NCBI GenBank assembly: GCA_039707465.1
Contig: CM077643.1
Span: 334,458,919-334,522,918 of the forward strand
Direction of reading: 5' to 3'
Source of the DNA: Rhabdophis nuchalis
Lineage: Eukaryota; Chordata; Lepidosauria; Squamata; Natricidae
Length of the DNA: 64,000 bases
Below are positions 3,984 through 64,000 of this stretch, in pieces. Within the stretch, counting starts at the first letter, position 1. Every line of letters starts with the position of its first letter. Both the position numbers and the translations under genes were made by a program. The notes beneath the pieces were generated by a model that saw only the letters and a list, made by a program, of their open reading frames with translations, did no database searches and had not been told where the DNA came from.

Positions 3984-4370
3984 ATCTACCTACCTACCTA
4001 CCTACTATATATATATCTCTCCCCCCCCTCTATCTACCTATATACCTACCTACTCTCTCTCTCTCCCCCTACCTATCTACTGCATTTCTCTCTCTCTCTC
4101 TATTTTTCTCTCTCTATCCCTCTACCTACCAACCTACCTACTCTCTCTCTCCCCCTACCTACTGTATTTCTCTCTCTTCCCCCCTATATCTACCTATATA
4201 TCTACCTACCTACTCTCTCTCCCCCTACCTATACTGTATTTCTCTCTCTCTCTAGTTTTCTGTCTAGCCCTCTATCTACCAACCTACCTACTCTCTCTCT
4301 CCCTACCTATCTACTGTATTTCTCTATCTCTCTATTTCTCTCACTATCCCTCTACTTACCTACCTACTTT
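3984..4370. repeat. Compound TACC/TCTC pyrimidine-rich simple repeat
   Basis: Alternating tacctacc, tatctacc and tctctctc runs. It produces long meaningless Tyr/Leu/Ser-rich frames in several phases. Confidence 0.9.
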
Positions 4371-4555
4371 TTTTAAAAAAATTGCCTCTTCAAAACCGTG
4401 GTGCATCTTATACTTCGATGCGTCTTATACTCCCAAAAATATTTTTTTTATGCTCTATACTTTTTTTTTTTTTTTTTTTTTTAATTTTTACAATATATCA
4501 CCCGGTGCTGTACAAAACAAAAGGAAGAGTTGGTTTCAAGTGTCGTCTATTGTCT

Positions 4556-7500: not shown

Positions 7501-8341
7501 CAAATTTAATCTCTCCGTTATCATTCAATTCCCAACTTTCCTTCCATTTTTTGAATATCCATATTTTATCCTCCTCCCTTTTGTACAATTTTTCATCATA
7601 TCTCCAACCTCTTTCCTTTTTCTCAAAATTAAAATCTATTTCCATCATAACTTCCGCATGATCAGAATCCTTAAAAATTCCCACATCTATTCTATCTACT
7701 TTATTCAACAAATCTTTAGAAACAAAAATATAATCAATCCTTGAATATGTATTATGTACTTTAGAACAAAAGGTATACACCCTTTCAGAGCCTTTCAACT
7801 CTCTCCAGACATCTACCACACTATTTTGAAACATCCATTTATTTAAAATTTCCCCTTTATTTGTTTGACTAAAGCGGGTAGGATTATTACTATCAATTCT
7901 ATCCCTAATTAAGTTAAAATCTCCCGCCACAATTACTTTCCCTTCACTTTCTATTTCCAAAATCTTAGTAATTTTGTCCAAAAATCCCTTTTGTTTTTCA
8001 TTCGGTAGATATAAATTAACCAATGTCACTTTTTGCTCGTTAATATTCCCTATAATTATTAAATATCTGCCTTCCTCATCTCTAATTACTTGTTTTTTTT
8101 CAAAGTATACCCTATTTGATATCAATATCGCAACTCCTCTAGCTTTGGAAGTCCCAAAAGATTTTTCATAAATTTGCATACCTTTAATGTTCATTCTATT
8201 AACATCCTCAGATTTTTGATGAGTTTCCTGCAAGAATAATATATCTGGAGAGTCCCTTTTAAATTTAAGTTCCAACCTTTTCCTTTTTATATGATTTCCT
8301 GTACCCTTCACATTCCATGTCATTATTTTTATAAACCGCAT
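4556..8341 (-). CDS. L1 ORF2 endonuclease / reverse transcriptase, 1261 aa
   Basis: This is the enzyme of target-primed reverse transcription: it nicks genomic DNA and copies L1 RNA. The N-terminal apurinic-type endonuclease shows the catalytic set N in MTWNVKGTGN, E in LQETHQ, D/N in VAGDFNLIRD, D in SRIDYIFVS and SDH near residue 228. The reverse transcriptase shows SYRPISLINQDAKIF, DIFKAFDSVQWD (about 592), GTRQGCPLSPTLF and LYADDTLIIL (YADD about 689). A C-terminal Cys/His cluster CX2CX8HX4C lies near residue 1110. The length matches full-length L1 ORF2 and the stop is TAA at 4556-4558. All catalytic residues I can check are present. Confidence 0.95.
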   Translation of the reverse strand: MRFIKIMTWNVKGTGNHIKRKRLELKFKRDSPDILFLQETHQKSEDVNRMNIKGMQIYEKSFGTSKARGVAILISNRVYFEKKQVIRDEEGRYLIIIGNINEQKVTLVNLYLPNEKQKGFLDKITKILEIESEGKVIVAGDFNLIRDRIDSNNPTRFSQTNKGEILNKWMFQNSVVDVWRELKGSERVYTFCSKVHNTYSRIDYIFVSKDLLNKVDRIDVGIFKDSDHAEVMMEIDFNFEKKERGWRYDEKLYKREEDKIWIFKKWKESWELNDNGEIKFEIVWDTMKAIFRGESIKLSSRKYREYKAKIDQDTRQIKILENQFSLTKDKNCLEELTLLKTKLIEEDIELVKKNLRYLNRDFFEFSNKNSRILAKMAKNKTQKREIGSLIDEKGTRCYKRLDKCEVARNFFQKLYLKKSIDLEKLKNHLGKYGMKIDQTYKELMERDITQEEINEIIQELKLGKTPGEDGLPAEFYKDFKELIIPKLQKLYNGILHGGEVPMSWNKTVISLIPKPDKDLERIESYRPISLINQDAKIFTAIISNRLNSFIDKYISYNQVGFVKGRYMSDIIRRVLNIIDVAENNGDELGIISLDIFKAFDSVQWDTIKVIIEALGFGNKFIHVISKLYQKSSAKVKVNGTMTEEIKLEAGTRQGCPLSPTLFLLVMEVLIKLIEVDEELEGYKGYKINLYADDTLIILKDIEKDLKRINKHLIEFEEITGLKVNWSKSELLINKDGKEWESMQEQFGIRVKNTLKYLGITLSFKVRELKKINYEVMLKEVEKKIDKYKEIKLSWFGRIAMCKMMLLPKFNFLFEMLPLNLTEKDIEEYQKKLDKFCNGGKRPRLMKKLWYQNQKEGGLGIPNLLNYYRAYNIRTVIKILKGGDGHWRDLELKDIKRFGSTWFLDRAKTKKVINSYWLKGLSKTWNKFVKKLIPDITFLGKTIESWPIKTNSSRNKVIEDENIGNIVDWLKASGTESRKKKIIQKLELNWFEKIQVEKWNMKARGICNIDRSKTKFEILVSQIIKDEVGLKGLVSKIYKIINFDGNPQMVMKRNWEEDLKIKILDLDWNENWKSRIMKTLSIRIKEHNFKVVWKWYWTPLRLSQIDKKMSDKCWRCNMELGTYEHMWYKCVKIKKFWQQLETTMCKMMKRIIILRPETILLLIINELELTKYEKELIRIMIIIGRIVIARYWKIEVNIKIEEWYCEMWKLALNDKMTCDIKFREGVYKNDIFWKTWKPFVDYALGTLDVSTPVPRERGFWRF

Positions 8342-8608
8342 TTAAGCGGTAACTGTTTTATTTCTGACCCCTCCTCTTCCTTTATGTGCACACCCAACAC
8401 CAAACGAAAAAAACGTACAGAAACATAAAACTCCACAGACAATATATAACAAACAACATACACATAATACTCAAATATCAGACACAACAACCACAACAAA
8501 TAACGAGCAATCTTCATCCCCCACATCCTCAATCAGATATCGCCTCTATATAAAGAGTGTGGGGGAGTGGGACATGCCGATGGTCGGGTCACCTCTTCGG
8601 GCTGTTCT

Positions 8609-9643
8609 TTAAATTCCACTTTCAAAAAAAGAAGACAACTCTGGCTTCGCCCCGGACTCAGCTTCCTGCTTTCTACTAAGATCCTCCATCTTGTCTGGCG
8701 TTCGTTCGGTATCTTCACGAATTTTCTTATACTCAGAAACTGCCGGGGAAATTTCTTTTCTCTTTAAACTCTTGGGATCTTGGCCGCCAGTTGCACCTTT
8801 TTCTTCCGAAATTGGGGATTCCTCTTGTACTCCACCCGTCTTAAGCATATAATCTTTAATTTCTACCAAATCTTCCTCTTTCTCAATCAGCCCAAGCTCC
8901 CGAATTAATCTTAATACGTCTGTTTCTGGAGTAATAGTATGCATCCTTCCTTTATAAAAAAATTTTAGTTGCTGTAGTGGCCTCCAATTGTACTTAATAT
9001 CATTGTCTCTCAAGAGCTTTGTAACTGGTTTCAAATGATATCTCCAAGCTCTGTCTTCCCTGGAAATATCCGGAAAAACTTGGATTTCTTTCTCCTCAAA
9101 CTTAGGAACACCTTCCAGTTCCCTTATTTTTGCCATGACCTCTAGTTTATCTCCAAGGTTTGCAAATCTTACTAAAACATTTCTAATCGCTCCACCTTGC
9201 CTCTTATAACCAATTCTAAAAACACTTACTAAGTTTGCTGCTGTATATTCAAATCCAAAATCATTCAACCATTTTAACACCCTCTGCTTCAAATCATCCG
9301 GTCTATTTTCTGGAATATTACGTATAACAATATTGTATTTTCTAGCGTCTTCCTCCAAAAGACTAATTCTCTTATCTTGTTGCTGGTTTTTATAAAAAAT
9401 TCCTTCCATCTTACGATCAATTTGTGCATCGTGTGCATGGATTTGTTCAATTTCATCTTTAATAAATTTCACCTCCACGTTTTGCTTTACAAAACTAACA
9501 TTCAATTCACTTATCTGTTCTTTAGCTTTTTGAACTTCCAATGTCAAATTCGCCACATGATCCGTCAGTCCAGTTAACTTTTCTCCAATTGTATTTAAAG
9601 CTCCAAAAATCCGTTCAAGCTCTGAAGGCTGTTGAGTCGTCAT
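8609..9643 (-). CDS. L1 ORF1 RNA-binding chaperone, 344 aa
   Basis: ORF1 proteins of L1 trimerise and coat the L1 RNA, forming the retrotransposition particle. Residues about 5-120 are coiled-coil (TIGEKLTGLTDHVANLTLEV and following heptads). An RRM-like core follows (YNIVIRNIPENRPDDLKQRV near 125), then the C-terminal domain (VFPDISREDRAWRYHLKPVT, YNWRPLQQLKFFYKGR). The tail from about 285 is Lys/Glu-rich. The start MTTQQPSELERI is the first ATG in frame after the 5' UTR. It is unlike the ORF1 at 44837-45685, so two L1 ORF1 lineages coexist here. Confidence 0.9.
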   Translation of the reverse strand: MTTQQPSELERIFGALNTIGEKLTGLTDHVANLTLEVQKAKEQISELNVSFVKQNVEVKFIKDEIEQIHAHDAQIDRKMEGIFYKNQQQDKRISLLEEDARKYNIVIRNIPENRPDDLKQRVLKWLNDFGFEYTAANLVSVFRIGYKRQGGAIRNVLVRFANLGDKLEVMAKIRELEGVPKFEEKEIQVFPDISREDRAWRYHLKPVTKLLRDNDIKYNWRPLQQLKFFYKGRMHTITPETDVLRLIRELGLIEKEEDLVEIKDYMLKTGGVQEESPISEEKGATGGQDPKSLKRKEISPAVSEYKKIREDTERTPDKMEDLSRKQEAESGAKPELSSFFESGI

Positions 9644-10270
9644 TTCAATTCAAAAACAAACTTTATATTTATATTTCTTTGCCAAGAGGGTCTTTTATAA
9701 AGAATAAGGGCAAACAGTGTCCCAAATCAGATAAGGCTAAGCCGGCTTATAATGCACCAAAGGAGCCAGAAAAAAAAAGCCTAGGAGAGCTTCCCCAGTT
9801 TATTTAACTTTTTAAGCCTCCATTTTAAGTGTAATCCAAAAAGCTTGCTCGCTACATTCAGCTCACACAATCCACTTTAAAAGAATTGGAAAGTTCAAAG
9901 GAGTTATAATCCACATGCCATCACCAACTTCCTTCTTTCTTAAACTTCAGCTTGTGTTTATAGCCTTGTAGCGAGACAAAAAGCATGCAAATGATCTTTG
10001 CCAAAGACAAAGGGTAACCCCCCTTACCTCGGCCGCTCGCCCAACCCTCTGCCTCCACGGAGAAACAAAACTTTGAAATTCGAGCAGTTCGGGTTGTTCA
10101 ATCACTTTGAAAAAGCAATTTACAAGTCACACCGACCTTCCAAAACATCTGTAGACATTTCCAGCTCCCAACGGCGCGTTTTAATCACTTTAATCCACAT
10201 TTGTTAGTAAAAAAAAAGCCCTACGAGGTGGAGAAAACACCTCTCTTCACACGAGCATCGGCCACGCCCC
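9644..10270 (-). promoter_or_regulatory. L1 5' UTR / internal promoter region
   Basis: The GC-richer 627 bp between the element's 5' end and the ORF1 start. L1 elements carry an internal RNA polymerase II promoter here (family knowledge). I cannot assign individual sites. Confidence 0.6.
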
Positions 10271-19159: not shown

Positions 19160-21534
19160 GTGAAGCAGTGGAGTTCATGGCTTCCATGGCAGCCATGGAC
19201 CTGACCCAGGTAGTTTTGGGCCCTACCCACGAGGGTGGACACACCCTGGATCTCATCTTCGTCTCGGGACAGTGGAGTCGTGATCTGGGAATAGGGGATT
19301 TAGTCATCACACCCCTGTCATGGACAGATCACGCTCTCCTTCGGCTCGACTTTCCGATCGCTACACCCCATCGTGGGGAGGCGGAACCGGATATTCCTAT
19401 ATGGTTCCGCCCCAGGCTTCTGATGGACCCGGTAAGGTTCCAAAGGGAGCTTGGGCCAATTCCTGTGGACTTGCCCCGCGACTCGACTTAGGACCTAGTG
19501 GCCTCATGGTTAAGTGCGGCCACGGGGGCCTTGGACCGAGTCGCGCCCGAGCGGCCTCTCTTGCGGCGATGATCCACCCGGGCTCCTTGGTTCACCGAGG
19601 AGCTTAGGGAGATGAAGCGCCACAAGAGACGCCTAGAGAGCAGATGGAGATCCTCTCGCTCCGAAGCCGACCGAACACTAGTGAGAACCTACATTAGGAC
19701 TTACCTGGTGGCGATAAGAGTGGCCAAACGTGAGTATTGTGCCACTCTTATTGCATCCGCAGATAACCGCCCTGCCGCCCTGTTTGGGGTGACCCGCTCC
19801 CTCCTTCAACAGAGGCCGCGGGAAGCCCCTCTACAGGGTCGAGCAGAGGAATTTGGGATTTATCTGCAGGAGAAAATCACTCGGATTCGGAGCGAGCTGC
19901 CCTCCATCGACAGTGGTCCAGCTGAGCGGTCCAAGGTTGCTCTTGAGACACCATCTTGGGAGGAGTTTGATTTTGTTACTACCGAGGATATGGACAAGTT
20001 GTCAAAGAGACTTAGGGCTACCACATGTTTATTGGACCCGTGTCCCTCCTGGCTTGTACTGGCATCCTGGGAGACGACACGAGGCTGGCTCCAGGGCATT
20101 GTCAACGCATCTTTGAGTGAGGGGTCCTTGCCTGCCGTCTTGAAAGAGGCAGTAGTAAGGCCCCTCCTCAAGAAGCCGTCCCTGGATCCAGCATTACTAG
20201 AGAACTATCGTCCCGTCTCCAACCTTCACTTTTTAGTGAAGGTTGTTGAGAGTGTGGTGGCCCAACAGTTTCCGCGACACTTGGAGGAAGTTGATTATCT
20301 AGACCCGTGCCAGTCCGGCTTCCGACCCGGGCATAGCACCGAGACGGCATTGGTCGCGTTGGTTGATGATCTCTGGAGGGCGCGGGATAGAGGATATTCA
20401 TCTATCCTAGTCCTATTAGACCTCTCAGCGGCTTTTGATACCATCGACCATGGTATCCTATTGCGTCGACTGGGGGGGTTGGGGCTGGGAAGCACCGTTC
20501 TACGGTGGTTCTCTTCCTACCTCTCTGGTCGGTCGCAATATGTGTTGGCAGGGGGGCAGAGGTCGGCCTCGAGGCCCCTCGTATGTGGGGTACCTCAAGG
20601 GTCGGTCCTCTCGCCCCTACTGTTCAACACATACATGAAGCCGCTGGGCGAGATCATCCGTGGTTTTGGGGTGGGATATCATCTGTACGCTGATGATACT
20701 CAGTTGTACATATCCACCCCAGACCACCCCAACGATGCCGTCGAGGTCATGTCCCGGTGTTTGGAGGCCGTACGGATCTGGATGGGTAGTAACAAACTCA
20801 GGCTCAACCCGTCCAAGACTGAGTGGCTGTAGCTTCCGGCACCCCGGTTCAGCCAGATTATTCCAACTCTGGCCATTGGGGGCGAAACACCGGCCCCCGT
20901 GGAGAGGGCGCGCAATTTGGGTGTCCTCCTGGATTCCCGGCTGTCCATGGAGGACCATGTGGCGGCCGTGGCCAGGGGGGCTTTCCATCAGGTACGCCTG
21001 ATGCGCCAATTGCGGCCCTTACTGGACCGGGCTGCCCTTCGCACAGTCACTCAGGCCCTCGTGACCTCTCGACTCGACTACTGTAATGCTCTCTACATGG
21101 GGCTTCCCTTGAGGTGCACTCGAAAGCTGCAGTTAGTCCAGAATGCAGCCGCGCGGGTGATTACGGGAGCGCCTAGACACTCCCACATAACACCTATCCT
21201 GCGCGAGCTGCACTGGCTTCCTGTGGTCTTTCGGGTGCGCTTCAAGGTTCTGACGACCATCTTTAAAGCGCTCCATGGCTCGGGGCCTAGTTATATGCGA
21301 GACCGCCTCCTGCCCCATACATCCCTCAGACCAATACGCTACCACAGAGAGGGCCTCCTCAGGGTGCCGTCGGCCGGACAATGCCGACTGGCGACACCCA
21401 GGGGGAGAGCCTTCTCTGTGGCAGGTCCAGCCCTTTGGAACGACTTACCCCCTGAACTTCGCACCATCTCTGACCTCCGCCTCTTCCGCAAGTGTCTTAA
21501 GACACATTTGTTCCATCTAGCCGGCCTAGCGTAG
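19160..21534 (+). pseudogene. CR1 ORF2 remnant (endonuclease C-end, RT, C-terminal domain)
   Basis: Three pieces are readable. 19160-19491 is the endonuclease end (GGHTLDLIFVSGQWSRD, SWTDHALLRLDFP). 19612-20832 is reverse transcriptase (YRPVSNLHFLVKVVES, LDLSAAFDTIDHG, VPQGSVLSPLLFN, HLYADDTQLYIS). 20899-21534 is the C-terminal region. Breaks compared with the copy at 25407: a reading-frame change with a stop near 19490, and TGG to TAG in EWL(W) near 20830. Not functional. Confidence 0.9.
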
Positions 21535-25045: not shown

Positions 25046-25406
25046 CATTATTCTATTTATTCCATCTATTTATGAATTTTAATGTGCCAACGATGCTTGA
25101 TTTATCCATGACCCATTTTTACATTTTATAATCATTTTGTACTCTAAAACCGATTTGCTACGACTGCGAGAGTCCTCGCTCTCGCAGGTTTGGCCCTCCG
25201 CTTTAACGAGGGCCCGCCTTGATGAAGGATTCATTAATCTGGAGAGGTGGGCGAAGCGCGGCCTTAGGGGTTTTTTAGTTTCCAAATTATTGTCTATTTT
25301 AGGGGGTACCAGGGAGGGGGGAGGGTATAAGCAGTTAGGAAGAGAGGGCCAGGCCGGCAGTCAGCGGAGGGATCCGTAAGGGGGGGGGGAAACACGAGTC
25401 GTCCCT

Positions 25407-28353
25407 ATGGAGGGCATTTCCATCCTGACGGTCGTGGGGAGAGGCAGGTCCGAGGGGAGGCAAGTTCCATCCTCCCGGTTGGGGGCACGCAGCCGTTGGT
25501 TGCATACGGTTGGGTGTCACAACCCCTGCAGGCTAGGTGGTCAGGGAATACAGAGCCAGGGCCTGAGGCTGATGTTTTGCAATGCCAGGTCCGTTGTCAA
25601 CAAAGCCCCCCTCATTTGTGACCTTGCGTCAGAGGGGGAGCCGGACCTGGCAGGAATTGCGGAGACCTGGTTGGGTCACGAGGGCGGACTCCCCCTCGTT
25701 GAAATGTGCCCACCAGGTTACCGCGCTTTTCATCAGCCTCGGACCCTAGGCAGGGGTGGTGGGGTGGCGGTTATTGTAAAGGAAGGTCTTGAGCCGAGAG
25801 AGACCACTGTGCCACAGACCACCGGTTGTGAGTCCCTCTGCGTGAAGTGGGGCCTAGGGAGGCAGTTGGGCGTGCTGGTTATATACCTGGCTCCCCGCTA
25901 TGTAGCAGCAGCCCTGCCTGAGCTCCTGGAGGTGATCGCTACGGTGGCAGTGGAGACCCCCAGACTCCTAGTCATGGGGGACTTTAATCTGCCATCGGTG
26001 GGCGAATCATCCGAGGTAGCTCGGGAGTTCATGGCTTCCATGACGGCCATGGACCTGACCCAATTAATTCAAGGCCCCACCCACGAGGGTGGACATACAC
26101 CGGATCTCATCTTCGTCTCTGCCCAGTGGAAAAGTGATCTGATTATAGGGGATATAGCCATCACACCCTTGTCATGGTCAGACCACTCACTTCTCCGGCT
26201 CGACTTTCCAACCGCTACTCCCCTCCGCGGAGAGGCGGAACCTGAGTCACCAATCTGGTTCCGCCCCAGGCGCCTGATGGACCCTGATGGGTTCCAGGCG
26301 GCGCTTGGGCCACTTCCTGTACCCCTGACCCGTGCCCCGATGGAGGACCTCACGGCCGCATGGAATAGTGCGGCCGTGGGGGCCTTGGCTCGGGTCGCGC
26401 CCTTGCGGCCTCTCTTGCGGCGGCGAGCCACCCTGGCTCCTTGGTTTACCGAGGAGCTGAGGGTGATGAAATGCCACAAGAGATGCCTAGAGAGAAGATG
26501 GAGGACTACCCGATCTGAATCTGACCGGACACAGGTAAGAGCCCATTTACGGACTTACATTGTGGCGCTGAGAGTGGCCAAACGTCATCATTGTGCCACT
26601 CTCATAGCATCCGCAGATAACCGCCCTGCCGCCCTGTTTAGGGTGACCCGCTCCCTCCTTCAACAGAGGGTGCGGGAAGCCCCGCTACAGAGTAGAGCAG
26701 AGGAATTTGTGATTTATCTGCAGGAGAAAATCGCTCAGATACAGAACGAGTTAGCCCCCATTCATGGCCCAGTGGGTTGCCACGAGGCAGATCTTGTTTG
26801 GGAGGAGTTTGACTCCGTTACTTCCGAGGATATGGACAGGCTACGTGGGCGACTGCGAGCCACCACATGTTTATTGGACCCGTGTCCCTCCTGGCTTGTA
26901 CTGGCATCCTGGGAGGTGACACGAGGCTGGCTCCAAGAGGTTGTCAACGCTTCTTTGAGGGAGGGTTCCTTGCCTGCCTCCCTTAAAGAGGCCATGGTGA
27001 GGCCCCTCCTGAAGAAGCCCTCTTTGGATCCAGCTCTTTTAAACAACTATCGTCCCGTCTCCAACCTTCCCTTCTTGGCGAAGGTTGTCGAGAGTGTGGT
27101 GGCACAACAGTTTCCCCGTCACCTGGAGGAAGTTGATTATCTAGACCCGCGCCAGTCCGGCTTTCGGCCCGGGCATAGCACCGAGACGGCATTGGTCGCG
27201 TTGGTCGATGATCTCTGGAGGGCCAGAGATGGGGGTTGTTCCTCCACCCTGGTCCTATTAGACCTCTCGGCGGCTTTTGATACCATCGACCATGGTATCC
27301 TATTGCACCGGCTGGGGGGGTTGGGGGTGGGAGGCACTGTTTTGCGGTGGTTCTCCTCCTACCTCTCTGGCCGGTCGCAATTTGTGTTGACAGGGGGGCA
27401 GAGGTCGTCCTCGAGACCCCTCACATGTGGGGTGCCTCAGGGGTCGGTCCTCTCGCCCCTCCTGTTCAACACATATATGAAGCCGCTGGGTGAGATCATC
27501 CGTGGTTTTGGGGTAGAGTACCATCTCTACGCTGATGATACTCAGCTGTATATATCTACCCCAAACCACCCCAACGATGCCGTAGCGGTGATGTGCCAGT
27601 GCCTGGAAGCCGTGCGGGTCTGGATGGGAAGTAACGGACTCAAGCTCAACCCGACCATGACCGAGTGGCTGTGGTTTCCGGCTGCCCGGTTCAACCAGCT
27701 GTCTCTATCGCTGGCCATAGGGGGCGAACATCTTGCCCCTGTGGATGGGGCGCGCAACTTGGGTGTCCTCCTGGATTCCCGGCTGTCCATGGAAGATCAA
27801 GTGACAGCCGTGGCCAGGAGGGCGTTTTACCAGGTTCGCCTGGTTCGCCAGTTGCGCCCCCTATTGGACTCATGCTCTCGTGACATCCCGGCTGGACTAT
27901 TGTAACTCTCTCTACATGGGGCTCCCCTTGAGGTGCACCCGGAGGCTGCAGTTGGTCCAGAATGCAGCCGCGCGAGCAATAATGGGTACCACAAGGTATA
28001 CCCATGTAACACCGCTCTTGCGCGAGCTGCACTGGCTACCTGTGGTCTTTCGGGTGCGCTTCAAGGTGGTAGTCATCATCTTTAAAGCGCTCCATGGCTC
28101 GGGACCTAGCTATCTGCGGGATCGGATTCTGCCTCATACTTCCTCACGGCCGATTCGCTCCCACAGAGAGGGACTTCTCCGGGTGCCGTCCACTAGACTT
28201 TGTCAGCGGGCGACGCCCAGGGGAAGGGCTCTCTCTGTGGCGGGCCCGGCCCTCTGGAACGACCTCCCCCCCGATATTAGAACTACCACGGACCTCCGCT
28301 CCTTCCGTCTGAAATTGAAAACGCACTTTTTCTGCCTGGCCGGCCTAGGGTAG
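25407..28353 (+). pseudogene. CR1 ORF2, one disabling deletion
   Basis: The first frame (25407-27905) holds the endonuclease (FCNARSVVNKAPLICDL, AETWLGHEGG, MGDFNLPSVG, SWSDHSLLRLDF) and the reverse transcriptase (YRPVSNLPFLAKVVES, LDLSAAFDTIDHGILL, VPQGSVLSPLLFN, HLYADDTQLYIS). Near 27870 about 26 bp that are present in the copy at 41534 (cgggacgcccttcgcacagt) are missing, shifting the frame. The C-terminal region continues at 27880-28353. Apart from that deletion no stop is seen, so it was recently active or close to it. Confidence 0.9.
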
Positions 28354-37280: not shown

Positions 37281-37760
37281 CAGTGGTACCTCGGTTCACG
37301 AACTTAATTCGTGAACTGACTCTGTTCGCGAACCGAATTGGTCGTGAAGCGAGGCACAATTTCCCATAGGGTTCAATGTAAATCCGGTTAATCCGTTCTG
37401 ACCTTGTTTTTTGGTCGTAATTCTTGAACTGACTCTGTTCGCGAACCTAATTGGTCGTGAACAGAGGCACAGTTTCCCATAGGGTTCAATGTAAATCCGG
37501 TTAATCCGTTCTGACCTTGTTTTTAAAATGTCCGCGGCTCCGGTTCGTGAAGCGAAACGGAGTTCGTGAACCCGAGCATTTTTACGAACTTTTCTGTTCG
37601 TGAAGCGAGGCGGAGTTCGTGAAGCAGAGCATATTTTTACGAACTTTTCCGTTCGTGAACCGAAACGGTGTTCATGAACCGGAGCACATTTTTTGGAAAA
37701 TTTCTGTTCGTAAACCGAATTGGTCATGAACAGAGGCGTTCGTGAACCGAGGTACCACTG
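37281..37760. mobile_element. Tc1/mariner-type MITE with TA target
   Basis: Exact inverted ends CAGTGGTACCTCGGTTC and gaaccgaggtaccactg are flanked by TA on both sides (37279-37280, 37761-37762). The interior is built from repeated gttcgtgaaccgaa-type modules, including a duplicated block (ttcccatagggttcaatgta occurs twice, at about 37360 and 37470). The open frame across it (225 codons with the TA repeat) is not a gene. Confidence 0.9.
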
Positions 37761-37816
37761 TATGTATGTATGTATGTATGTATGTATGTATGTATGTATG
37801 TGTGTATATATATATG
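37761..37816. repeat. (TATG)n microsatellite abutting the MITE
   Basis: It starts at the TA duplication itself. Confidence 0.97.
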
Positions 37817-37840
37817 GCCCATTTCTCTCATATATTCTCT

Positions 37841-37961
<121 letters not shown>

Positions 37962-38136
37962 GCTCCACAGCACCCTGTTAGGGCCCCAATTAAGGGAGGA
38001 GACATACTGTTTCCTTTTCTGCCTTTCGGCTCATCACCAGAGACGATCTAGACAAAAAGCTATGAGTTCCGTTGTGTGATTTTTTTAATATGTGTGTTAG
38101 TTTTATGAGCTGATAAATAAATAAACAGGGAGACTA

Positions 38137-39822: not shown

Positions 39823-40242
39823 GTATTAGAACAATATAATATTCATATACATTAGTTTACCAAAAAGTAAATCTTTCATTTGGGAGTTATACTGAATTTC
39901 CCTTTGATTAGTATTGAATGCCATTTCTTCCATTATTGAAAACTTTCCAACATTAACATGTGCAATGTGTTTTGAGCAGAGAAGTATGAGGTTTAATTAA
40001 ATCTGATCATTTCTATAGTGACATAGGAGTTCCTATATTGTTCACTAAATGGGCTTTTGAAGTTGATGAAGAATGCTTATTAATTTTATTTTAAATATAT
40101 TATTTTTCTGTAGTAATGAAAATAGATTTTTAAATAGTTTTCCTACATATTCTATGTAGTAAGAAATACTACTACTGTGTAGTTCATATCCTTTATGTGC
40201 ACATCTCAGTAAAATTCTTAATGTTTTTGTCTTAAATTTCAG

Positions 40243-40411
40243 GTTCTAGCTAGCTACATAAATCCTGCAGGCAGCACATCAAATGGAGATATCCAGTCTA
40301 GCCATGAAAGTAGAGGACAAAACAGCAGTGCCCTTCCATCAGTTTTGCTAGAGCTACTTAGTCAATCATGTCTTATTCCAGCAATGTCATCTTATCTCCG
40401 CAATGATTCAG
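40243..40411 (+). CDS. BIRC6: BIRC6 exon p (last in window)
   Basis: The acceptor is taaatttcag ending at 40242 and the donor GTAGTG at 40412. It encodes VLASYINPAGSTSNGD, then LPSVLLELLSQSCLIPAMSS and YLRNDS. One base of the next codon is left over. No continuation (human VLDMARHVPLY...) was found in the remaining 23.6 kb. Confidence 0.95.
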
Positions 40412-41340: not shown

Positions 41341-42994
41341 GATAGATAGATAGATAGATTTATTTTTCTATACCGCGTCCTCTCCCCAGGGGGACTCGGA
41401 GCGGTGCACAGGGAAAATTAAAACAGCATAAAATGTATACATAAATAAATACAATAAAAACAAATTAAATCAACTGTCCCTGTACTAAAATCCCCATTTT
41501 AAAATTAACATTCCCTAACCCCTGAGGTACAGACTAACCTAGGCCGGCCAAGCAGAAAAAGTGAGTTTTTAATTTCTGACGGAAGGAGCGGAGGTCCATA
41601 GTTGTTCTAATGTCGGGGGGAAGGTCGTTCCAGAGGGCTGGGCCCGCCACAGAGAAGGCCCTTCCCCTGGGCGTCGCCCGCTGACAAAGTCTAGTGGACG
41701 GCACCCGGAGAAGTCCCTCTCTGTGGGAGTGAATCGGCCGGGAAGATGTATGGGGCAGAATCCGATCCCGCAGATAGCTAGGTCCCGAGCCATGGAGCGC
41801 TTTAAAGATGAGAACTAACACCTTGAAGCGCACCCGAAAGACGACAGGTAGCCAGTGCAGCTCGCGCAAGAGCGGTGTTACATGGGTATACCTTGCGGTA
41901 CCCATTATTGCTCGTGCGGCTGCATTCTGGACCAACTGAAGTCTTCGGGTGCACCTCAAGGGGAGCCCCATGTAGAGAGAGTTACAATAGTCCAGTCGGG
42001 ATGTCACGAGAGCATGAGTGACTGTGCGAAGGGCGTCCCGATCCAATAGGGGGCGCAACTGGCGAACCAGGCGAACCTGGTAAAACGCCCTCCTTGCCAC
42101 GGCTGTCACTTGATCTTCCATGGACAGCCGGGCATCCAGGAGGACACCCAAGTTGCGCGCCCCATCCACAGGGGCAAGATGTTCGCCCCCTATGGCCAGC
42201 GATGGAGTCAGCTGGTTGAATCGGGCAGCCGGAAACCACAGCCACTCGGTCTTGGTCGGGTTGAGTCTGAGTCCGTTACTTCCCATCCAGATCCGTACGG
42301 CTTCCAGGCACTGGCACATCACCGCTACGGCATCGTTGGGGTGGCTTGGGGTAGATATATACAGCTGAGTATCATCAGCATAGAGATGGTACTCTACCCC
42401 AAAGCCACGGATGATCTCACCCAGCGGCTTCATATATGTGTTGAACAGGAGAGGCGAGAGGACCGACCCCTGAGGAACCCCACATGTGAGGGGTCTCGAG
42501 GTCGACCTCTGCTCTCCTGCCAACACAAATTGCGATCGGCCAGAGAGGTAGGAGGAGAACCACCGTAAAACGGTGCCTCCCACCCCCAACCCCTCCAGCC
42601 GATGCAATAGGATACCATGGTCGATGGTATCGAAAGCCGCCGAGAGGTCTAATAGGACCAGGATGGAGGAGCAACCCCCATCTCTGGCCCTCCAGAGATC
42701 ATCGACCAACGCGACCAATGCCGTCTCGGTGCTATGCCCGGGCCGAAAGCCGGACTGGCGCGGGTCTAGATAATCAACTTCCTCCAGGTGACGGGGAAAC
42801 TGTTGTGCCACCACACTCTCAACAACCTTCGCCAAAAAGGGAAGGTTGGAGATTGGACGATAGTTGGTTAATAAAGCTGGATCCAAAGAGGGCTTCTTAA
42901 GGAGGGGCCTCACCATGGCCTCTTTTAGGGAAGCAGGTAAGGCACCCTCACTTAAGGATGCGTTGACAACCTCTTGGAGCCAGCCTCGTGTCAT
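41341..42994 (-). mobile_element. 5'-truncated CR1 LINE, copy 3, GATA tail
   Basis: The minus-strand CR1 begins inside the reverse transcriptase (MTRGWLQEVVNAS at 42994) and ends with the 3' UTR (ctccgagtccccctggggag) followed by AATC/TATC, i.e. GATA repeat on + at 41341-41360. It lies in the large last intron, antisense to BIRC6. Confidence 0.92.
41534..42994 (-). pseudogene. CR1 ORF2 RT and C-terminal part, open
   Basis: 487 codons without stop or frameshift: YRPISNLPFLAKVVES, LDLSAAFDTIDHGILL, VPQGSVLSPLLFN, YADDTQLYIS and the C-terminal [10 protein letters not shown] ... [11 protein letters not shown]. The endonuclease is missing, so the element cannot move itself. The frame appears to extend to 43039, but those first residues come from the neighbouring MITE, not from CR1. 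Confidence 0.9.
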
Positions 42995-43300
42995 ACTGTG
43001 TTTCCCCGAAAAGACAACATGGCCTGAAACTAAGGCCATGCCACATATTTCGGGTGGGCAAAAATATTACACCCCCCCAAAAAATAAGCCCCCTGGACAA
43101 TCCCCCCCCCCCGGCAAAGCGGCCCTGCGGCCCAGGAGGAGGAAGAGCCGCTGCCGCCGCCTTCTCCCACCACCGCTGCCGCCATCCTTAAACACTGAGA
43201 GGAGTCTGAGGGAGCCAGGACACCACAATAACAATCCTCCACCAGCGCCTCCAGCCCGCGGTGCAAGGCAGCCTGGGAGTGAGTCCCGCATAGCTTAATT
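42995..43300. mobile_element. Divergent 'TGTTTCCCCGAAAA' MITE with GC-rich interior
   Basis: It starts actgtgtttccccgaaaa exactly where CR1 copy 3 is truncated, then reads aaaataagccccctgg and a GC-rich segment (gaggaagagccgctgccgcc). The right end is not clear. Confidence 0.45.
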
Positions 43301-44574: not shown

Positions 44575-46541
44575 TATATTGAAAAAGTTTTATTGGTTTT
44601 ACAATTTTTCATTGGGGTAGGGTAAGAGATACAAAGAAATTTTGAGAGCTTTCGCATCAAAGTCGTCGGCCCTTCCGGAGCTTCATAATAAATCATTAAC
44701 AAAAAACATTTTTCATAATACTACAAAGTGAAAACAAGTACATATTTCTAAGTTCTCAATTCAATGCTGTCAGTCATTTGCAAAAATCCAGATACACATG
44801 TTATACAATATTACTCAAAAAAAAATCAAGGCAAAGTTATTTTTTAGATCTAAGTCTCTTGGCAATTGTGTCTTCTGTCCCTCCTTCCAGGCCCCCAGCG
44901 GGCGGGGCCGCGGCCCCCCCTGCCCCCCCTGGATCTTCCCCCAGGACAGAGGAATGTTTTTTAAGAAAGGCTTCCGCCTCAGCAACTGTTTTAATCCTCA
45001 CTCTTCCTCCTTCCCAGAACACCAGCATCCCTTCGGGCATCACCCACTTGAACCAGATCCCGTGATCAAACAATTTTCTAGACAAGAAGGAAAATTTCCT
45101 TCTCGCTTCTCTAATCTTTCTTGGAATCTGCTTCAAGATGACAACCTCCTTTTGTTGGTAAATTAACGGTCCTCCTCTTTGCACCTTCAAGATTTCCTCT
45201 CTGGTTGACCTTCTAACAAATTTCACATGTATCTCTCTGGGTACTTCATTTATCCTGGCATATGCAGAGTTTATTCTGTAGGCTAGGTCAATGTCCCCTC
45301 TGATCTCATCCTTAGGTTTATGTAAATAATCTGCTAAAATTGTGCTCATGAGTTCAGGGAGACATTCACCAGATTCCTCAGAAACGTTCTGAAATCTCAA
45401 AAAATATGTCATCCTTTCCATATCAATCCTAGACACATGCCTATTTATTTCTACAACCTCATTAGTAACATTTTTAATCTCTCCCTTAGCCCCCGCCAGC
45501 CCCCCTTCCAGTTCTTCATTCTTCTGTGTATTCTCCAGCACTTGTTTCCGTGTGTCCAATAATTCCTTTTTAAAGTTGATATTTTCTGCCCTCTGTGCCT
45601 TGATTTCTTGTACCAAAGTTTGTATAACAGATTCAAGAGAGGCCATCCTTAGTTCTAAGCTTGCCAGTGCTGATTCTTGTGCCATGATTAGCTGTTAAAA
45701 TCAGTGCCACTAAAATGGCGTTTTTTGGGTGGGGCTGTTGAGGCAAGTCAGGAGCCAAAAGTTCAGTTCAGGGTTGTAAAGTTCAGGAACCAAGAGAGAA
45801 ACAATTTTCCAAATCAATAAGTATAATAACGAAGGCACTCCAGAAAAGAAATCACAAATCCAAAAAAAAATTCTTCTTTAGTAACCAGAGGGAGTCCAAA
45901 TCACAAAGAGACGCTGGAAATTTTCCATAAGCAAAATAGTCATTCAGGGACAAAGAGAAGCCATTTTCCACCGCCCAGACTCAGAGCCAGAAGGAGAGAG
46001 TGGTAAAAAAAAATGTTTCAAGTCAGCCAGACCTAGATACTTTGTTTCAAAGACAAACCGCAGATCACTTTCCCTTGTTTCAAACAGTCCGGATTAAAGA
46101 TATCCGCTTCCTCGCAGCGAGGAGCCATTCTTAAGTGCCGCTTTAGTCCGAGGGGGGGTTTAACAAGCAGACACCCCCCTCCAAGTTCTTTCAGCCCAGG
46201 CTGACAGCAAAAAAAATGTTTAAAACCACTCACTTTCCCCCTCGCAGCCGAAGCCCCGGGAAGCCTTCCGACTCAGACGGCCAGCTCTCTCCATGTTCTC
46301 AAAACGATGCCGCCCGCCATTGGCGAAGGGGAAACCCCCCGCAGCATGTCCTCCTCCACCTAAGCCGAAGACAGGGGTCGCTTCCCAGCTGCCGCTGGGG
46401 GAGGGCGACCCAGGCAAGCCGGCTTTACGGAAGACCCCCAAAAACGGGGCGTCTCGCCCCCGTGGGGGGGCAGGAAAAGAAACAAAGCGGCGAGCGAGCC
46501 CTAGGCTCGCCCGTCGCCGCTGGAGCCGGAACCGGAAGTCC
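44575..46541 (-). mobile_element. ORF1-only L1 derivative (HAL1-like), copy 1
   Basis: A 1.97-kb element flanked by a perfect 19-bp duplication GGGAGGTCTTATTATTTTT (44556-44574, 46542-46560). In the sense (minus) direction it has a GC-rich 5' UTR of about 856 bp starting at the GGACTTCCGGTTCC end, one ORF of 282 codons that is an L1 ORF1, and a 3' UTR of about 260 bp ending aaaactttttcaatata. There is no reverse-transcriptase ORF and no gap where one was: copy 2 at 60849 has the same layout. The organisation matches mammalian HAL1 ('half-L1') elements. It presumably uses ORF2 from another L1. Confidence 0.85.
44837..45685 (-). CDS. L1 ORF1-type protein of the HAL1-like element, 282 aa
   Basis: L1 ORF1 architecture. 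Residues about 1-90 are a coiled coil (LASLELRMASLESVIQTLVQ; ENTQKNEELEGGLAGAKGE). An RRM-like core follows (MTYFLRFQNVSEESGECLPE). The C-terminal domain follows (EVPREIHVKFVRRSTREEIL, IPRKIREARRKFSFLSRKL, GMLVFWEGGRVRIKTVAEAE). A Pro/Gly-rich tail ends KRLRSKK. The frame is fully open and starts at the first ATG after the 5' UTR. It differs strongly from the ORF1 at 8609-9643. Likely role: nucleic-acid chaperone binding its own RNA. Confidence 0.85.
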   Translation of the reverse strand: MAQESALASLELRMASLESVIQTLVQEIKAQRAENINFKKELLDTRKQVLENTQKNEELEGGLAGAKGEIKNVTNEVVEINRHVSRIDMERMTYFLRFQNVSEESGECLPELMSTILADYLHKPKDEIRGDIDLAYRINSAYARINEVPREIHVKFVRRSTREEILKVQRGGPLIYQQKEVVILKQIPRKIREARRKFSFLSRKLFDHGIWFKWVMPEGMLVFWEGGRVRIKTVAEAEAFLKKHSSVLGEDPGGAGGAAAPPAGGLEGGTEDTIAKRLRSKK

Positions 46542-54865: not shown

Positions 54866-56987
54866 GTATGGGACATCATGACATTTGACTAACTTTCCAT
54901 AGCCTTTCTGGCTGCTCTAGTGAGTGCAAATACTAAATGTAAGCACGTATATTTTAAAGATCTCTTGATTCAAAGTTATTTTGCTAGAACTGTATGTGTA
55001 TGCCTGTGCGTGTGCAGGCATGCCACTTTGCGTCAATTTAAGACTTCTTGAGACTGCCTGGAAAAAATGTAAACATTTTAAATTGATCATAACTATTGTC
55101 AAGTTCAAATGCTAATCTGAAGAGACATTTAATTGTACCAGATAGTTTGACAAGAATTGACAAATACCTTGCTACGATCTATACTTTACTGATTTTCTGT
55201 TTTTCATTACTTATCGTGGACTTCCTTCCAAAAATAGTCATAAAAATGTATTTGCCCTATACTGTCCTTTCTCCTATATATGCATCTTTACCCAAACACC
55301 ATGTGTTCATTTTTCATTTCTGCTCTAATACTCTTCTGTTTTTCTTTTCATTTACGTCAGTCCTGTTAGCTTTTGTCAGTTCTTCATGTCCAATTACTAT
55401 TTGTATCCTTATTCCATATTCCTTTGTTTGCATCCGATGTCCAAGTATAGGTCTCCTTTCATTTTAGAGAAATAAAACTCTTTTGTCTTCTTAATGTCCT
55501 TTTATAAGTCTGAGCATTTGGCCAGTCTCCCAAACATTAATTTAGTTCTTAGCAATATACAGTACGTGTTTTAAATTAAAAATGGGTCCTTATGGTGGAT
55601 AAAAACTTTGACTTCAGCTTAGATGTTAGGTTCAACCTACCTGTCCGTTGGACTTAGTTTTTCATCTGTTTAGTGTCCTATTTCCTGTTTTAGAAATTAG
55701 AGTTACATCAGATATTAAACAGTAATAAAAGACAACTGCCGTGTTATATTGTCACATCTAATATTCAAAGACATTACATTTTTTCAAAGATTATTTACTC
55801 AAATATTAATGATGTTTCTTATAATTAAAATGTTCTTAAAAATACAGGCAAAATAGGAAAGGCAACATCATGGACCATAATTCTTTAAATGATTGGTTTA
55901 GTTGGCACATGGAATAGGAAAACAGTGTGGTTGATGTTCATTTAACAGCACAGTTCTTTTAAAAAAATATATAAATAAATCCCATTGGTTTCATTATGGT
56001 TTCCCCCCAATAAGTATTATAGTCCAAGAGACACTTTAAAACTGTAAAAATGTTTATTTAGATCAATTAAGTGGAATTTTAAGTAAATGCATGAAAGGTT
56101 TCCCCAGGTTATTGGCCATGGAGAATATATTGTTTGGAACCAATATAATACCATAATACTTTAAAACCATCTGTTTTTAAATCATACATGATTCAAATTT
56201 CAATAACTCAATGTATTTCTTTCCAATATTCTGTTAAAGTCAGACTTAATAGTAGATTGCAATTACTATGTTTTCTTCAAACCGTGATCTTCTCTTTTTT
56301 AATGAAAATTGCCCTTGAAATAACATTTTGCAGTACAAACATTGTTTTACAATTACATGTTGTATAGAGTGTAGCTTATAAGCATGGATATAAATTAATA
56401 CCTACAAGCATTATATTGCAGTACCTGACAGAATTGTCAGCAGTATAAGAAATAAAAGTATCATGGAAGCTAATCAATGAAGATTTTATTTATTCATAAT
56501 ATGGTGCTTAACAGTGTTCTTCTTTCTACATTCCATGTATAGTTGTATAAATTTTAGCACTTAATAATAGTAGAAAGTGCACTGGATTCCAACCCAGGTG
56601 TTATTTAAATGAATCCAGAAGCTTAATGGGGATCAGGTAAATAAAACAAGTAGGTTTCATGGCACCATTATCTTTATTTGTAACCTGCTTATATTATCAA
56701 TGTCCCCATGTTCACTGGCAGAAGAACACTGTATGCATTTTAGAGTTTGAATATTGACACTCATCATTTAGAAGTTGAATACTGTTTTCATTTACATGTA
56801 ATAAGCTTAATTAGATTCAAAGATATATATTGAATATGGTCAGTGGTGCTGGGCCTTTATCTGGGCAGTTCTGTCTGGAATGTGTATTTTCTTTTGAGGC
56901 TTTGTTTCCTGTTGGATAGAGTTCTCTGATCCTATTTGTCATTGCTGGCCTTTGCACTCTGTGCTTTTCTGGATTTCTAGAAAACCA
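54866..56987. other. Transposon-poor intronic stretch
   Basis: No recognised repeat. The part just below 56988 would be the 3' UTR of the microprotein gene on the minus strand. Candidate minus-strand AATAAA signals are at 56673-56678 and 56485-56490. Confidence 0.5.
56673..56678 (-). terminator. Candidate polyadenylation signal of the microprotein gene
   Basis: AATAAA on the minus strand about 310 nt past the TGA. A second candidate is at 56485-56490. Neither is proven. Confidence 0.35.
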
Positions 56988-57179
56988 TCAAAGTGTTGTG
57001 TAGATATACACAAAAATTATTACAAATAGATTAAGCACTGTTCCAATTATTCCCAACAGAGCTAAAACAGATTCCTCTTTTTCCTCACTTTCTTCTTGCC
57101 TTTTCACATCTTCTAACGTTGTAATGGCAGCGCTCCTCATTTTTTCTGCAAAGACCTTCACCAGTGTTTGGACTGCTGG
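56988..57179 (-). CDS. Membrane microprotein, coding exon 2 (TUNAR-like)
   Basis: 63 codons plus TGA. The acceptor is an ideal pyrimidine tract ending ttctttctag at 57180. Encoded: PAVQTLVKVFAEKMRSAAIT, a charged linker DVKRQEESEEKEES, and one hydrophobic segment LALLGIIGTVLNLFVIIFVY ending IYTTL at the C-terminus: a tail-anchored single-pass protein. From memory, the last 30 residues (from KEESVLA) are about nine-tenths identical to the TUNAR/BNLN microprotein, an ER protein reported to interact with SERCA2 and tune calcium. This would be a paralogue with a longer N-terminus. It lies antisense inside the last visible BIRC6 intron. Function is inferred only from the membrane segment. Confidence 0.8.
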   Translation of the reverse strand, partial: PAVQTLVKVFAEKMRSAAITTLEDVKRQEESEEKEESVLALLGIIGTVLNLFVIIFVYIYTTL

Positions 57180-58047
57180 CTAGAAAGAAGGGAAAAAATT
57201 ACTTACTTTGTGGATCCTCCCTCCCTTTCACACATATACATATACACACAAATCCAACATGTACATAACCCACATATTAATGTACATGTATTTTATTTTG
57301 TTTATTTCCTAGTAAAACAAGAGAAATGTATAGTTCATTCCAACCTAATTTTAATTTTTGAACTGAATAGTCCCCCCCCCCCCCAATCAGTACCAGTACT
57401 TTACATAGTAAACATATGTGGCTTACTGAAAAACAGATAAACAGGAAATAGACAGGTAGTTAAATTAGTATACGTTGATATATCAATAAGCAAGTTTGAT
57501 CACATAGCCCAAATTAGGTTAGCCTTTTATATAAAAGGTAAAATGGTTTTAGTGAATTTTATATCTAAAAATCTGCATTTAAACTGGAAAGAAAAAAAGA
57601 GAAAATTGTATAAATGTTGCCATGTAGTGTGGCAACAGATAGCACGATGCTGTTAGGAAGGTTTTGAAGAAGTGCTATATATACAATTTATGGTAGATAC
57701 CAGCTATTGTCTTTTGTTTGCTTTTTGTTTTGTGGTGTTTAATATAGATTTAATGTAACTATGGTTCACTTTATAATCTTTTGGTGTTAAAAATGAAGAT
57801 GTATTTATGCTGGGATTTGTAGTTTGTTGCATTTAAATATTACTCTGTTTGGGAAATAAAATTTTCAGTCTAAGCTGAATGGAATGCCAGACAGTTTACA
57901 CACAGTATCCAGAAAGGCATATAACTGAATGCCTATTGAAATTACATGTTTTTGAATATTTTAATTACATTTAAAATTACAGTGATTGCAGCAATCAAAA
58001 ATTAATAAACTAATTTACGCTTAAAGATTTGTAAAAGCCTCTCTTAC

Positions 58048-58083
58048 CCTACATTGCATCAGGAATAAAATCTCATCAGACAT
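58048..58083 (-). CDS. Membrane microprotein, coding exon 1
   Basis: The start codon is at 58083-58081, with A at -3 and an in-frame TGA five codons upstream, so this ATG is a credible start. It encodes MSDEILFLMQCR and stops at AGG followed by the donor GTAAGAG (58047 downward). Joining to 57179 removes an 868-bp GT-AG intron and keeps the frame, giving a 75-residue protein. A strong acceptor-like tttttccactgcag ends at 58099, so this may be an internal exon of 51 nt (58098-58048) with a 5' UTR exon further upstream. Confidence 0.72.
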
Positions 58084-60848: not shown

Positions 60849-62818
60849 CTTTTTTTATATTGAAAAAGTTTTATTGGTTTTTACAATTTTCCAAAGGGGT
60901 AGGGAATACAGAAACATTTTAAGAACTTTCGCGTCGGAATCATTGGCCCTTCCAAGGCTTCATAATAAAATATTTAAAAAAAACGTTTTTCCAAAAAATA
61001 CTACAAGGTGAAAATAAGTACATATTTCCTAAATTCTCAATTCTATGCTAGCAGTCGTGTGTAAACATCCAGATATAAAGGTTATAGAATATTAATAATA
61101 ATAAAAAAAAGCAAAGTTATTTTTTCGATCTAAGTCTCTTGGCAATTGTATCTTCTTTTTCTCCTCCCTGGCCCCCAGCGGGCGGGGCCGTGACCCCCTC
61201 CGTCCCCCCTGGATCTTCCCCCAGGATAGAGGAATGTTTTTTAAGAAAGGCTTCCACCTCAGCAACTGTTTTAATCCTTACTCTTCCTTCATCCCAGAAC
61301 ACCAGCATCCCTTCTGGCATCGCCCACTTAAACCAGGTCCCGTGGTCAAACAATTTTTTAGATAAGAAGGAATACTTCCTTCTCATCTCTCTAATCTTTT
61401 TTGGGACCTGCTTCAAGATGACGACTTCCTTTTGTTGGTAAATTAACGCCCCCCCCTCTCTGCGCCCTCAAAATTCCCTCTCTGGTTGATCTTCTAACAA
61501 ATTTAATATGTATCTCTCTGGGTACTTCATTTATCCTGGCATATGTCAAATTTATTCTGTAGACTAGGTCAATGTCCCCCCTGATCTCATCTTTAGGTTT
61601 ATGTAAATAGTCTGCTAAAATTGTACTCATGAGATCAGGAAGGCATTCACCAGGTTCTTCAGAAATATTCTGAAATCTTAAAAAATATGACATCCTTTCA
61701 AAATCCATCCTAGACATATGACCAGACAAATCTGCAATTTCAGTGTTGGCATTTTTAAGTTCTCCCTTTGCCCCAGCCAGCCCCCCTTCCAGCTCCTCCG
61801 TCTTCTGTGTGTTCTCCAGCACTTGCTTCCGTGTTTCCAGAAGATCCTTCTTGAAACTATTATTATCTTCTCGCAAAGCTTTAATTTCATGCACCAGAGC
61901 TTGTAACACTGATTCCAAAGATGACATTCTTTGTTCCAATCCTGCCAGTTCTGATTTAGATGCCATGGTAAGCTGTTAAAGTCAGTGCCACTAAGATGGC
62001 GTTTTTTGGGTGGGGCCGTTGAAGCAAATCAGGAGAAAAACAGTTCAAATGGATGTAAAAAGTTCAGGACCCAGCAGAGAAACACTGTTCACAGTCAATA
62101 ATTATAGCAAAGAAGGCACTCCAGAGAAGGAATCAATTAATCCAAAAACGTCTTCATTAGTATAGAGAGAGTCTCCAGTTCACAAGAGATGTTGGTAATT
62201 TTTCAAAAATAAAAATAATCATTCAGGAACAAAGGGAACCATCCTCCACCGCCCAGTCTGAGAGCCAGCCGGAACAAAAGAAACAATTGTATCAAGCCAG
62301 CCAGACTTAGTTACATTGTAAAAAGAAACAAGCCGCAAATCACTTTCACTTAGTTAAAGCCGTCCGGATACAAAACTTCCGCTCCCTCGCAACTGGGAGC
62401 CATTTCTAAACGCCGCTTTAAATCCGAGGGGGGGTTTAACAAACAAACACCCCCCTCTACGTCTTTCAGTCCAGGCTGCCAGCACAAATAATGTTACAAA
62501 TCACTCACTCTTCACCTCGCCGCCAAAGCCCCGGGGGAGCCTTCCAACCCGACACTCAGCTCTTTTTAAATCCGCTGTGCGTTACCATCCTCCATTGGCG
62601 AAGGGAAACCCCCCCGCGGCATGCCTTCTCTTATCTAGGCCGAAGACAAGGGCCGTTTTCCCGCCGCCGCAGGGAAAAACAAACCCAGGCGAGCCAGCCC
62701 TACGGGAGGCCCCCAAAAGGGGGTGCCTCGCCCCCGTGGGGGGGGGGCAGAAAAAAGGACAAAGCGGCGACCGAGTCAGAGACTCGCCCGTCGCCGCTGG
62801 AAGGCGGAACCGGAAGTC
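60849..62818 (-). mobile_element. ORF1-only L1 derivative (HAL1-like), copy 2
   Basis: Same structure and length as copy 1 (44575-46541): GC-rich 5' UTR (right end ccgctggaaggcggaaccgg), ORF1, a 3' UTR of about 260 bp, and the end ctttttcaatataaaaaaag. It is flanked by GATAAGTCTTCTT (60836-60848, 62819-62831), up to 15 bp counting two ambiguous bases. The whole element aligns to copy 1, so both are full-length members of one family. Confidence 0.88.
61117..61966 (-). pseudogene. ORF1 of HAL1-like copy 2, frameshifted
   Basis: The first part (61966 down to about 61441) reads like copy 1 (QRMSSLESVLQALVHEIKAL, MSYFLRFQNISEEPGECLPD). The frame breaks at a C-run (gcccccccctctctgcgccc) where copy 1 reads RGGPLIYQQKE. 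It resumes at 61416-61117 (MKQVPKKIREMRRKYSFLSK to KRLRSKK). A one- or two-base length change in the run explains it. Confidence 0.85.
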
Positions 62819-63766: not shown

Positions 63767-64000
63767 AATAAAAGAGAGATTTTGAATATAATTGATCCCG
63801 TTTGTTGGGAGATTCTGCAAAATTTAGGAGAATCGTTCAGACATAATGCATATCAACTGCAGGAATCAAAATTTGGTAAATATAGTTAGGATTCATCTAT
63901 CTCATTAAGACATACAATAGTTTATGTAGTTTTGACTTAGTATACTGTTTAAACTTGATGAATTATGATTTATTCAATAATCCATAACTAAGCTTGATGT
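63767..64000 (+). other. BIRC6 intron, window end
   Basis: Nothing recognised; the intron begun at 40412 is still open here. Confidence 0.6.

Follow-up and report, generated by a model that had tools for sequence, protein, structure and literature searches.

A two-exon gene antisense to BIRC6 in the snake Rhabdophis nuchalis is very probably a squamate copy of an ancient second TUNAR gene

We analysed a 64,000-nucleotide stretch of the Rhabdophis nuchalis genome (hereafter the window) and found that its minus strand carries an intact two-exon gene for a 75-residue protein. This gene very probably represents, in squamates, an ancient second TUNAR gene (TUNAR-like), nested antisense within a BIRC6 intron towards the 3' end of that gene.

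Results

An intact two-exon gene on the minus strand

The coding sequence runs from 58083 to 56988 on the minus strand. Coding exon 1 (58048..58083) holds codons 1-12 (MSDEILFLMQCR), with Met1 at 58083 and Met9 at 58059; it is followed by a phase-0, GT-AG intron of 868 nt (57180..58047; GTAAGA...CTAG) and by coding exon 2 (56988..57179), which supplies codons 13-75 (63 codons) and a TGA stop. The first exon ends in AGG before a GTAAGAG donor, the acceptor reads TTTTTTCCCTTCTTTCTAG, and the frame stays intact over the splice, so that MSDEILFLMQCR is joined to PAVQTLVKVFAEKMRSAAITTLEDVKRQEESEEKEESVLALLGIIGTVLNLFVIIFVYIYTTL in a product of 75 residues with the C-terminal end IYTTL. An in-frame TGA stands as the fifth codon 5' of Met1, and in the unspliced reading of the exon 2 frame a TAG immediately upstream closes the frame. 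The structure given in the preliminary description (a minus-strand, two-exon coding sequence with its ATG, upstream in-frame stop, donor, acceptor, 868-bp intron, kept frame and IYTTL end) was confirmed base for base.

As a chance control, an HMM made from the last 48 residues of 14 TUNAR-class proteins, with the TUNAR-like class left out, was run against the 2033 six-frame stop-to-stop segments of at least 20 aa in the whole window; the exon 2 segment ranked first (E 3.5e-24) and the runner-up reached only E 0.8, which rules out a chance ORF. A candidate polyadenylation signal, AATAAA, lies ~310 nt past the stop (56673..56678, minus strand) and a second at 56494 (minus strand), both identified by motif only. 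When the minus strand is read past the stop, with TGA taken as W (56940-56990), the window gives HRVQRPAM and its relative P0014 gives HTVQRPAM, a likeness that hints that the start of the 3' UTR may be conserved as DNA.

BIRC6 exons lie on the plus strand in order, with residues 3523-3786 at ~13.88-14.67 kb and residues 4200-4275 at 36.57-36.80 kb (residue numbering follows PDB chain 8atm_A), and the last one found before the TUNAR-like gene (40228..40410, plus strand) encodes residues ~4324-4383. A human BIRC6 C-terminal segment that starts right after the residue-4383 exon gave no credible match in the window among the best 30 rows, the best being a reverse transcriptase ORF at E 1.1. Since the next part of BIRC6 is absent from the window, the TUNAR-like gene would lie in the intron that follows residue ~4383 and spans 23 kb or more, provided that BIRC6 continues colinearly beyond base 64000. 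With BIRC6 exons on the plus strand at ~13.88-40.41 kb and the gene on the minus strand, the nested antisense placement that had been proposed at the outset holds on that proviso.

The window also contains several repetitive elements. A minus-strand ORF of 1261 residues at 4556-9649 encodes an intact endonuclease-reverse transcriptase (RVT_1, E 1.5e-39; Exo_endo_phos, searched without the first residue) and is preceded on the same strand by a 346-residue ORF with no Pfam match; together the two look like an L1-type LINE, apparently complete, within a BIRC6 intron. An 841-residue endonuclease-RVT ORF (25380-27905, plus strand; RVT_1, E 4.3e-34) and similar-looking pieces at 19573-21534 (plus) and 41534-43066 (minus) are CR1-like elements by look. 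Two related minus-strand ORFs (44837-45694, without a Pfam match, and 61391-61975) look like pieces of LINE ORF1, and a long simple repeat tract at 37730-38051 yields (IY)n ORFs on both strands.

A TUNAR-family protein with one membrane helix and an invariant inner methionine

Pfam TUNAR (PF21954) matches residues 41-75 of the predicted protein with E 1.1e-19 and 70.5 bits, against a curated cut-off of 27, and the last 35 residues are nearly identical to TUNAR, in line with the near-identity of the C-terminal part given in the preliminary description. As in TUNAR there is a single C-terminal hydrophobic helix and the protein ends in VYIYTTL. Kyte-Doolittle hydropathy peaks at 2.74 in the 19-residue windows 50-68 and 51-69, the one strongly hydrophobic stretch, as first noted, and together with AlphaFold it predicts a single transmembrane helix at ~residues 49-72 (57000..57071, minus strand). 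The AlphaFold model, computed for the Pituophis protein P0001 with 26 rows, places a helix at 46-74 (block pLDDT 77-85 from residue 51 and 58 for residues 41-50); it is weak overall (mean pLDDT 65.7, pTM 0.37) and of low confidence outside the helix.

Exon 2 contains a sole Met, Met26 (57138..57140, minus strand), which has A at -3 and as an inner start would yield a 50-residue short form. This inner Met is invariant in 21/21 aligned TUNAR-like rows, is likewise invariant in a 22-row TUNAR alignment, and is lost in P0141 and P0142, which stand outside the 21-row alignment. Because the inner Met is invariant in those rows, though lost in these two, a 50-residue product would be at least as likely as the 75-residue one. 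By analogy with human TUNAR, which also has a 65-residue long form and whose 48-residue form has been put at three times more translated (PMC8758570, in the part of the paper available), the main product of the window gene is probably the form that starts at Met26. P0141, P0142 and P0146 are TUNAR-like proteins of decayed look with changes in the helix, and their sources are possibly lineages that are losing the gene; a search from P0141 for further relatives at E 1e-6 returned P0141 and P0142 only.

Relatives from sharks to snakes, some of them already named

The best database match is the NCBI 'protein TUNAR-like isoform X1' of Pituophis catenifer annectens (P0001; 97% over all 75 residues), which has 73/75 residues in common with the window protein and differs once, I5V, in the 12 residues of exon 1. 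This search, started from the window protein, returned 102/102 candidates at E 10 or better, and 26/26 members of alignment A3 match Pfam TUNAR. Another relative, P0002, matches at 81% over 75 residues without gaps across the exon junction, the alignment that a spliced transcript would give; its source, 'lgn', which we take to be assembled public reads, comprises 25 contigs of up to 4901 bases, with the protein prediction method unstated. A profile search gave 381 matches at E 0.001 or better among 8000 scored, and the 120 of these that were listed place the TUNAR-like class in Bombina, Xenopus laevis, Pelodytes, Anomaloglossus, Lissotriton, Huso, eels, several other teleosts and two sharks; no mammal, bird, turtle or crocodile of this class appeared among the species-named rows to P0145 of the matches listed. 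Pelodytes has both genes, P0105 on a 212-Mb contig and P0161 on a 53-Mb contig, and a separate TUNAR is present in the snakes Pituophis (P0032), Vipera (P0020) and Liasis (P0042).

The protein is thus conserved in other vertebrates, as the preliminary description had predicted of the ORF. The preliminary description also called the gene easily missed and knew of no annotated mammalian gene at this position; in reptiles it is not unannotated, since automated annotation in Pituophis already carries it as 'protein TUNAR-like isoform X1' (NCBI/UniRef), and the 'TUNAR-like' name is attached to relatives in Bombina, Pelodytes, Lissotriton, Anguilla and Cetorhinus. NCBI naming is loose, however: the Danio aesculapii and Osmerus proteins called 'TUNAR-like' sit in the TUNAR group, and a Scyliorhinus 'TUNAR' sits in the TUNAR-like group. 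A literature search for 'TUNAR-like' found no paper, and among the papers listed no title or abstract opening mentions a paralogue of TUNAR, although Ulitsky 2011 and Li 2021, the founding papers, may already describe a BIRC6 copy.

Could the locus act mainly as a noncoding antisense RNA on BIRC6, with the peptide secondary, as the name of zebrafish linc-birc6 (megamind) might suggest? Both linc-birc6/megamind and mammalian Tunar have been treated as lncRNAs (PMC5300904, PMC3877055, as far as the available text of each goes), mouse and human RNAs partly rescued the megamind knock-down in a manner dependent on conserved sequence, according to the accessible part of a review (PMC4047558), and the 3' likeness to P0014 described above would fit a conserved RNA. 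Against this, the ORF is conserved at the residue level from sharks to snakes, an Rfam search at 56.0-59.5 kb gave 0 matches to E 1, by which we rejected an Rfam RNA element there, and later work, in the available portions of these papers, attributed the knock-down result to a non-specific action of the morpholino and reported that the megamind mutant shows no function (PMC6347452, PMC7155256). We therefore regard a mainly noncoding role as improbable.

Considerably less probable is that the gene is a decaying or untranscribed remnant in Rhabdophis nuchalis. The decayed look of P0141, P0142 and P0146 lends this some plausibility, but in the window the ORF, donor and acceptor are all intact and nearly every residue is common with Pituophis.

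The window gene belongs to a separate and ancient TUNAR-like group

A maximum-likelihood tree was built on 63 columns from 59 rows, namely the window plus 58 proteins picked from the 182 returned to cover both classes. One branch of it, with support 91/95, parts 28 TUNAR-like rows, the window included, from 31 TUNAR rows. Class labels had been assigned by eye beforehand, the root is the midpoint, and many inner forks are weak. The split between the two classes is a single change in 89% of 200 bootstrap trees, and both sides hold snakes, frogs, ray-finned fishes, and sharks or a chimaera; a tool warning marks long branches that meet between the Heptranchias/Callorhinchus pair and the TUNAR-like side. 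The window falls outside the TUNAR group, with frog, fish and shark TUNAR-like proteins and apart from snake TUNAR, and the tree with TUNAR that had been proposed as a check thus bears out the initial view of a TUNAR paralogue.

This placement weighs against the idea that the gene is TUNAR itself, with the one-to-one orthologue of the gene on human chromosome 14 having relocated to BIRC6 in squamates. The near-identical C-terminus and the similar exon layout would be expected of it, but Pituophis, Vipera and Liasis each have a separate TUNAR, and the coexistence of both genes in Pituophis contradicts such a move, which we consider very unlikely indeed. Least probable of all is a recent squamate-only duplicate or retrocopy of TUNAR: many retrocopies do sit in a foreign intron, but this gene has an intron at the common position, its class also occurs in frogs, a newt, a sturgeon, teleosts and sharks, and, under the tree model, forcing the named squamate rows of both kinds together (8 rows) cost 46 log-likelihood units and was rejected (p-AU 2.89e-5; 5.19e-5 with the nearest relatives P0003 and P0005 added and 3.89e-5 with P0002 and P0006 too, the squamate sets having been chosen once the tree had been seen).

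A splice point and a first exon common to both groups

The window intron lies 13 codons before the inner Met, at the splice point that isoform pairs indicate in both groups. In Anolis TUNAR the first part is 12 residues long, and isoforms X3 and X4 part where 13 residues remain to the inner Met. At the same 13-residue distance, one Q distinguishes the isoforms of Alosa TUNAR, of Sardina TUNAR and of Scyliorhinus TUNAR-like, the pattern expected from alternative CAG acceptors. Exceptions are Huso, where by reading 11 rather than 13 residues separate CR from the inner Met, and the four TUNARs of Pituophis, Petaurus, Sminthopsis and Discoglossus, whose first part has 13 residues; a Pituophis/Pantherophis pair, taken from different species, gave no clean splice point.

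The exon-1 peptides of the two groups resemble each other more than in 5000/5000 order shuffles (10 vs 13 peptides; Huso was out, and a Xenopus row off register and the four 13-residue TUNAR rows cut at the splice end were kept), and the outcome was the same with 9 vs 9 peptides of clean 12-codon register. Given the common splice point and this likeness above shuffles, the two-exon long form is, on these comparisons, most likely older than the duplication. The longer N-terminus, which had been put forward as a mark of the paralogue, loses that role, since lizard and fish TUNARs share a similar first part and the same apparent splice point, and human TUNAR has its own long form.

Discussion

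Our results argue that the snake Pituophis carries two TUNAR-family genes and that the window gene is the copy of an old duplicate. With snakes, frogs, fishes and sharks or a chimaera on each side of the tree and the squamate grouping rejected, the split reaches back to jawed vertebrates, provided that the long-branched shark and chimaera rows are well placed, and otherwise at least to bony vertebrates. The two genes would then have parted before living jawed vertebrates arose or at about that time, and the early vertebrate genome duplications would be the simplest route. Such an origin would fit the known whole-genome-duplication paralogon that links human 2p, with BIRC6, to 14q, with TUNAR (VRK2/VRK1, TTC7A/TTC7B, CALM2/CALM1).

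As to function, pTUNAR, a transmembrane microprotein of the ER, co-precipitates with SERCA2 and reduces cytosolic calcium, and, under the name BNLN, the same protein was reported by another group to act on SERCA3 in beta cells (PMC8758570 and a report cited there, in the part available). By homology to pTUNAR, with a membrane helix almost the same, the window gene likely encodes a one-pass ER membrane microprotein that tunes SERCA. We envisage that a short spliced mRNA would be made from the strand opposite BIRC6 and translated mainly from Met26, giving the 50-residue form, and partly from Met1, giving the 75-residue form. Both forms would span the ER membrane with a single C-terminal helix, leave the charged linker in the cytosol and bind a SERCA calcium pump within the membrane, as pTUNAR does, and so shift the uptake of calcium into the ER; neural or endocrine cells are the probable site. 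What sets the protein apart from TUNAR would be the linker typical of its class (ITTLEDVKRQEE..EEKEES, vs MVITSGNDEDRG.QEKESKEES in TUNAR).

These considerations matter because pTUNAR has been described as an ER calcium regulator of the nervous system and, under the name BNLN, of beta cells. With a second ancient copy, loss-of-function work on fishes, frogs and reptiles would have to take both genes into account, and, with the gene nested antisense in BIRC6, BIRC6 alleles or deletions might hit the TUNAR-like gene as well.

Among known systems, the name of zebrafish linc-birc6 (megamind) ties it to birc6 and suggests the locus found in the window, whereas the available text of one paper calls it the orthologue of Tunar (PMC5300904). 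Conceivably the BIRC6-nested gene, and not TUNAR, is the counterpart of megamind, with megamind and TUNAR being whole-genome-duplication paralogues and the BIRC6 copy lost in mammals. We find this doubtful: the accessible part of the review describes the mouse and human megamind counterparts as syntenic, which would favour TUNAR (PMC4047558), and the one Danio protein in the tree, that of Danio aesculapii, sits in the TUNAR group. If it were true, results that share one name would refer to one SERCA-tuning microprotein gene in fishes and another in mammals, and the mammalian gene matched to the zebrafish lincRNA that bears the name of birc6 may be the wrong one.

The regulins (PLN, SLN, MLN) and DWORF are likewise single-pass, SERCA-tuning microproteins by function class; the portion of the source available describes pTUNAR as lacking the regulin xLFxxF motif (PMC8758570). 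The motif is missing in the window protein too, whose LFVIIF is one residue longer by reading. The proteins that NCBI names 'protein TUNAR-like' in Pituophis, Bombina, Pelodytes, Lissotriton, Anguilla and Cetorhinus, which are known by name and sequence rather than by position, fall in the same tree group as the window protein. With TUNAR itself (pTUNAR/BNLN, PF21954) the window protein has in common nearly identical C-terminal 35 residues, one C-terminal membrane helix, a charged linker and the inner Met, and its 50-residue form from Met26 would be the equivalent of 48-residue pTUNAR. It differs in its linker (LEDVKRQEE..EEKEES in the window class vs GNDEDRG.QEKESKEES in TUNAR), in its locus antisense in BIRC6, in its separate tree group, and in residue 64, where F is usual in TUNAR-like and I, V or L in TUNAR, with F in sturgeon and Synaphobranchus TUNAR and L in shark TUNAR-like as exceptions.
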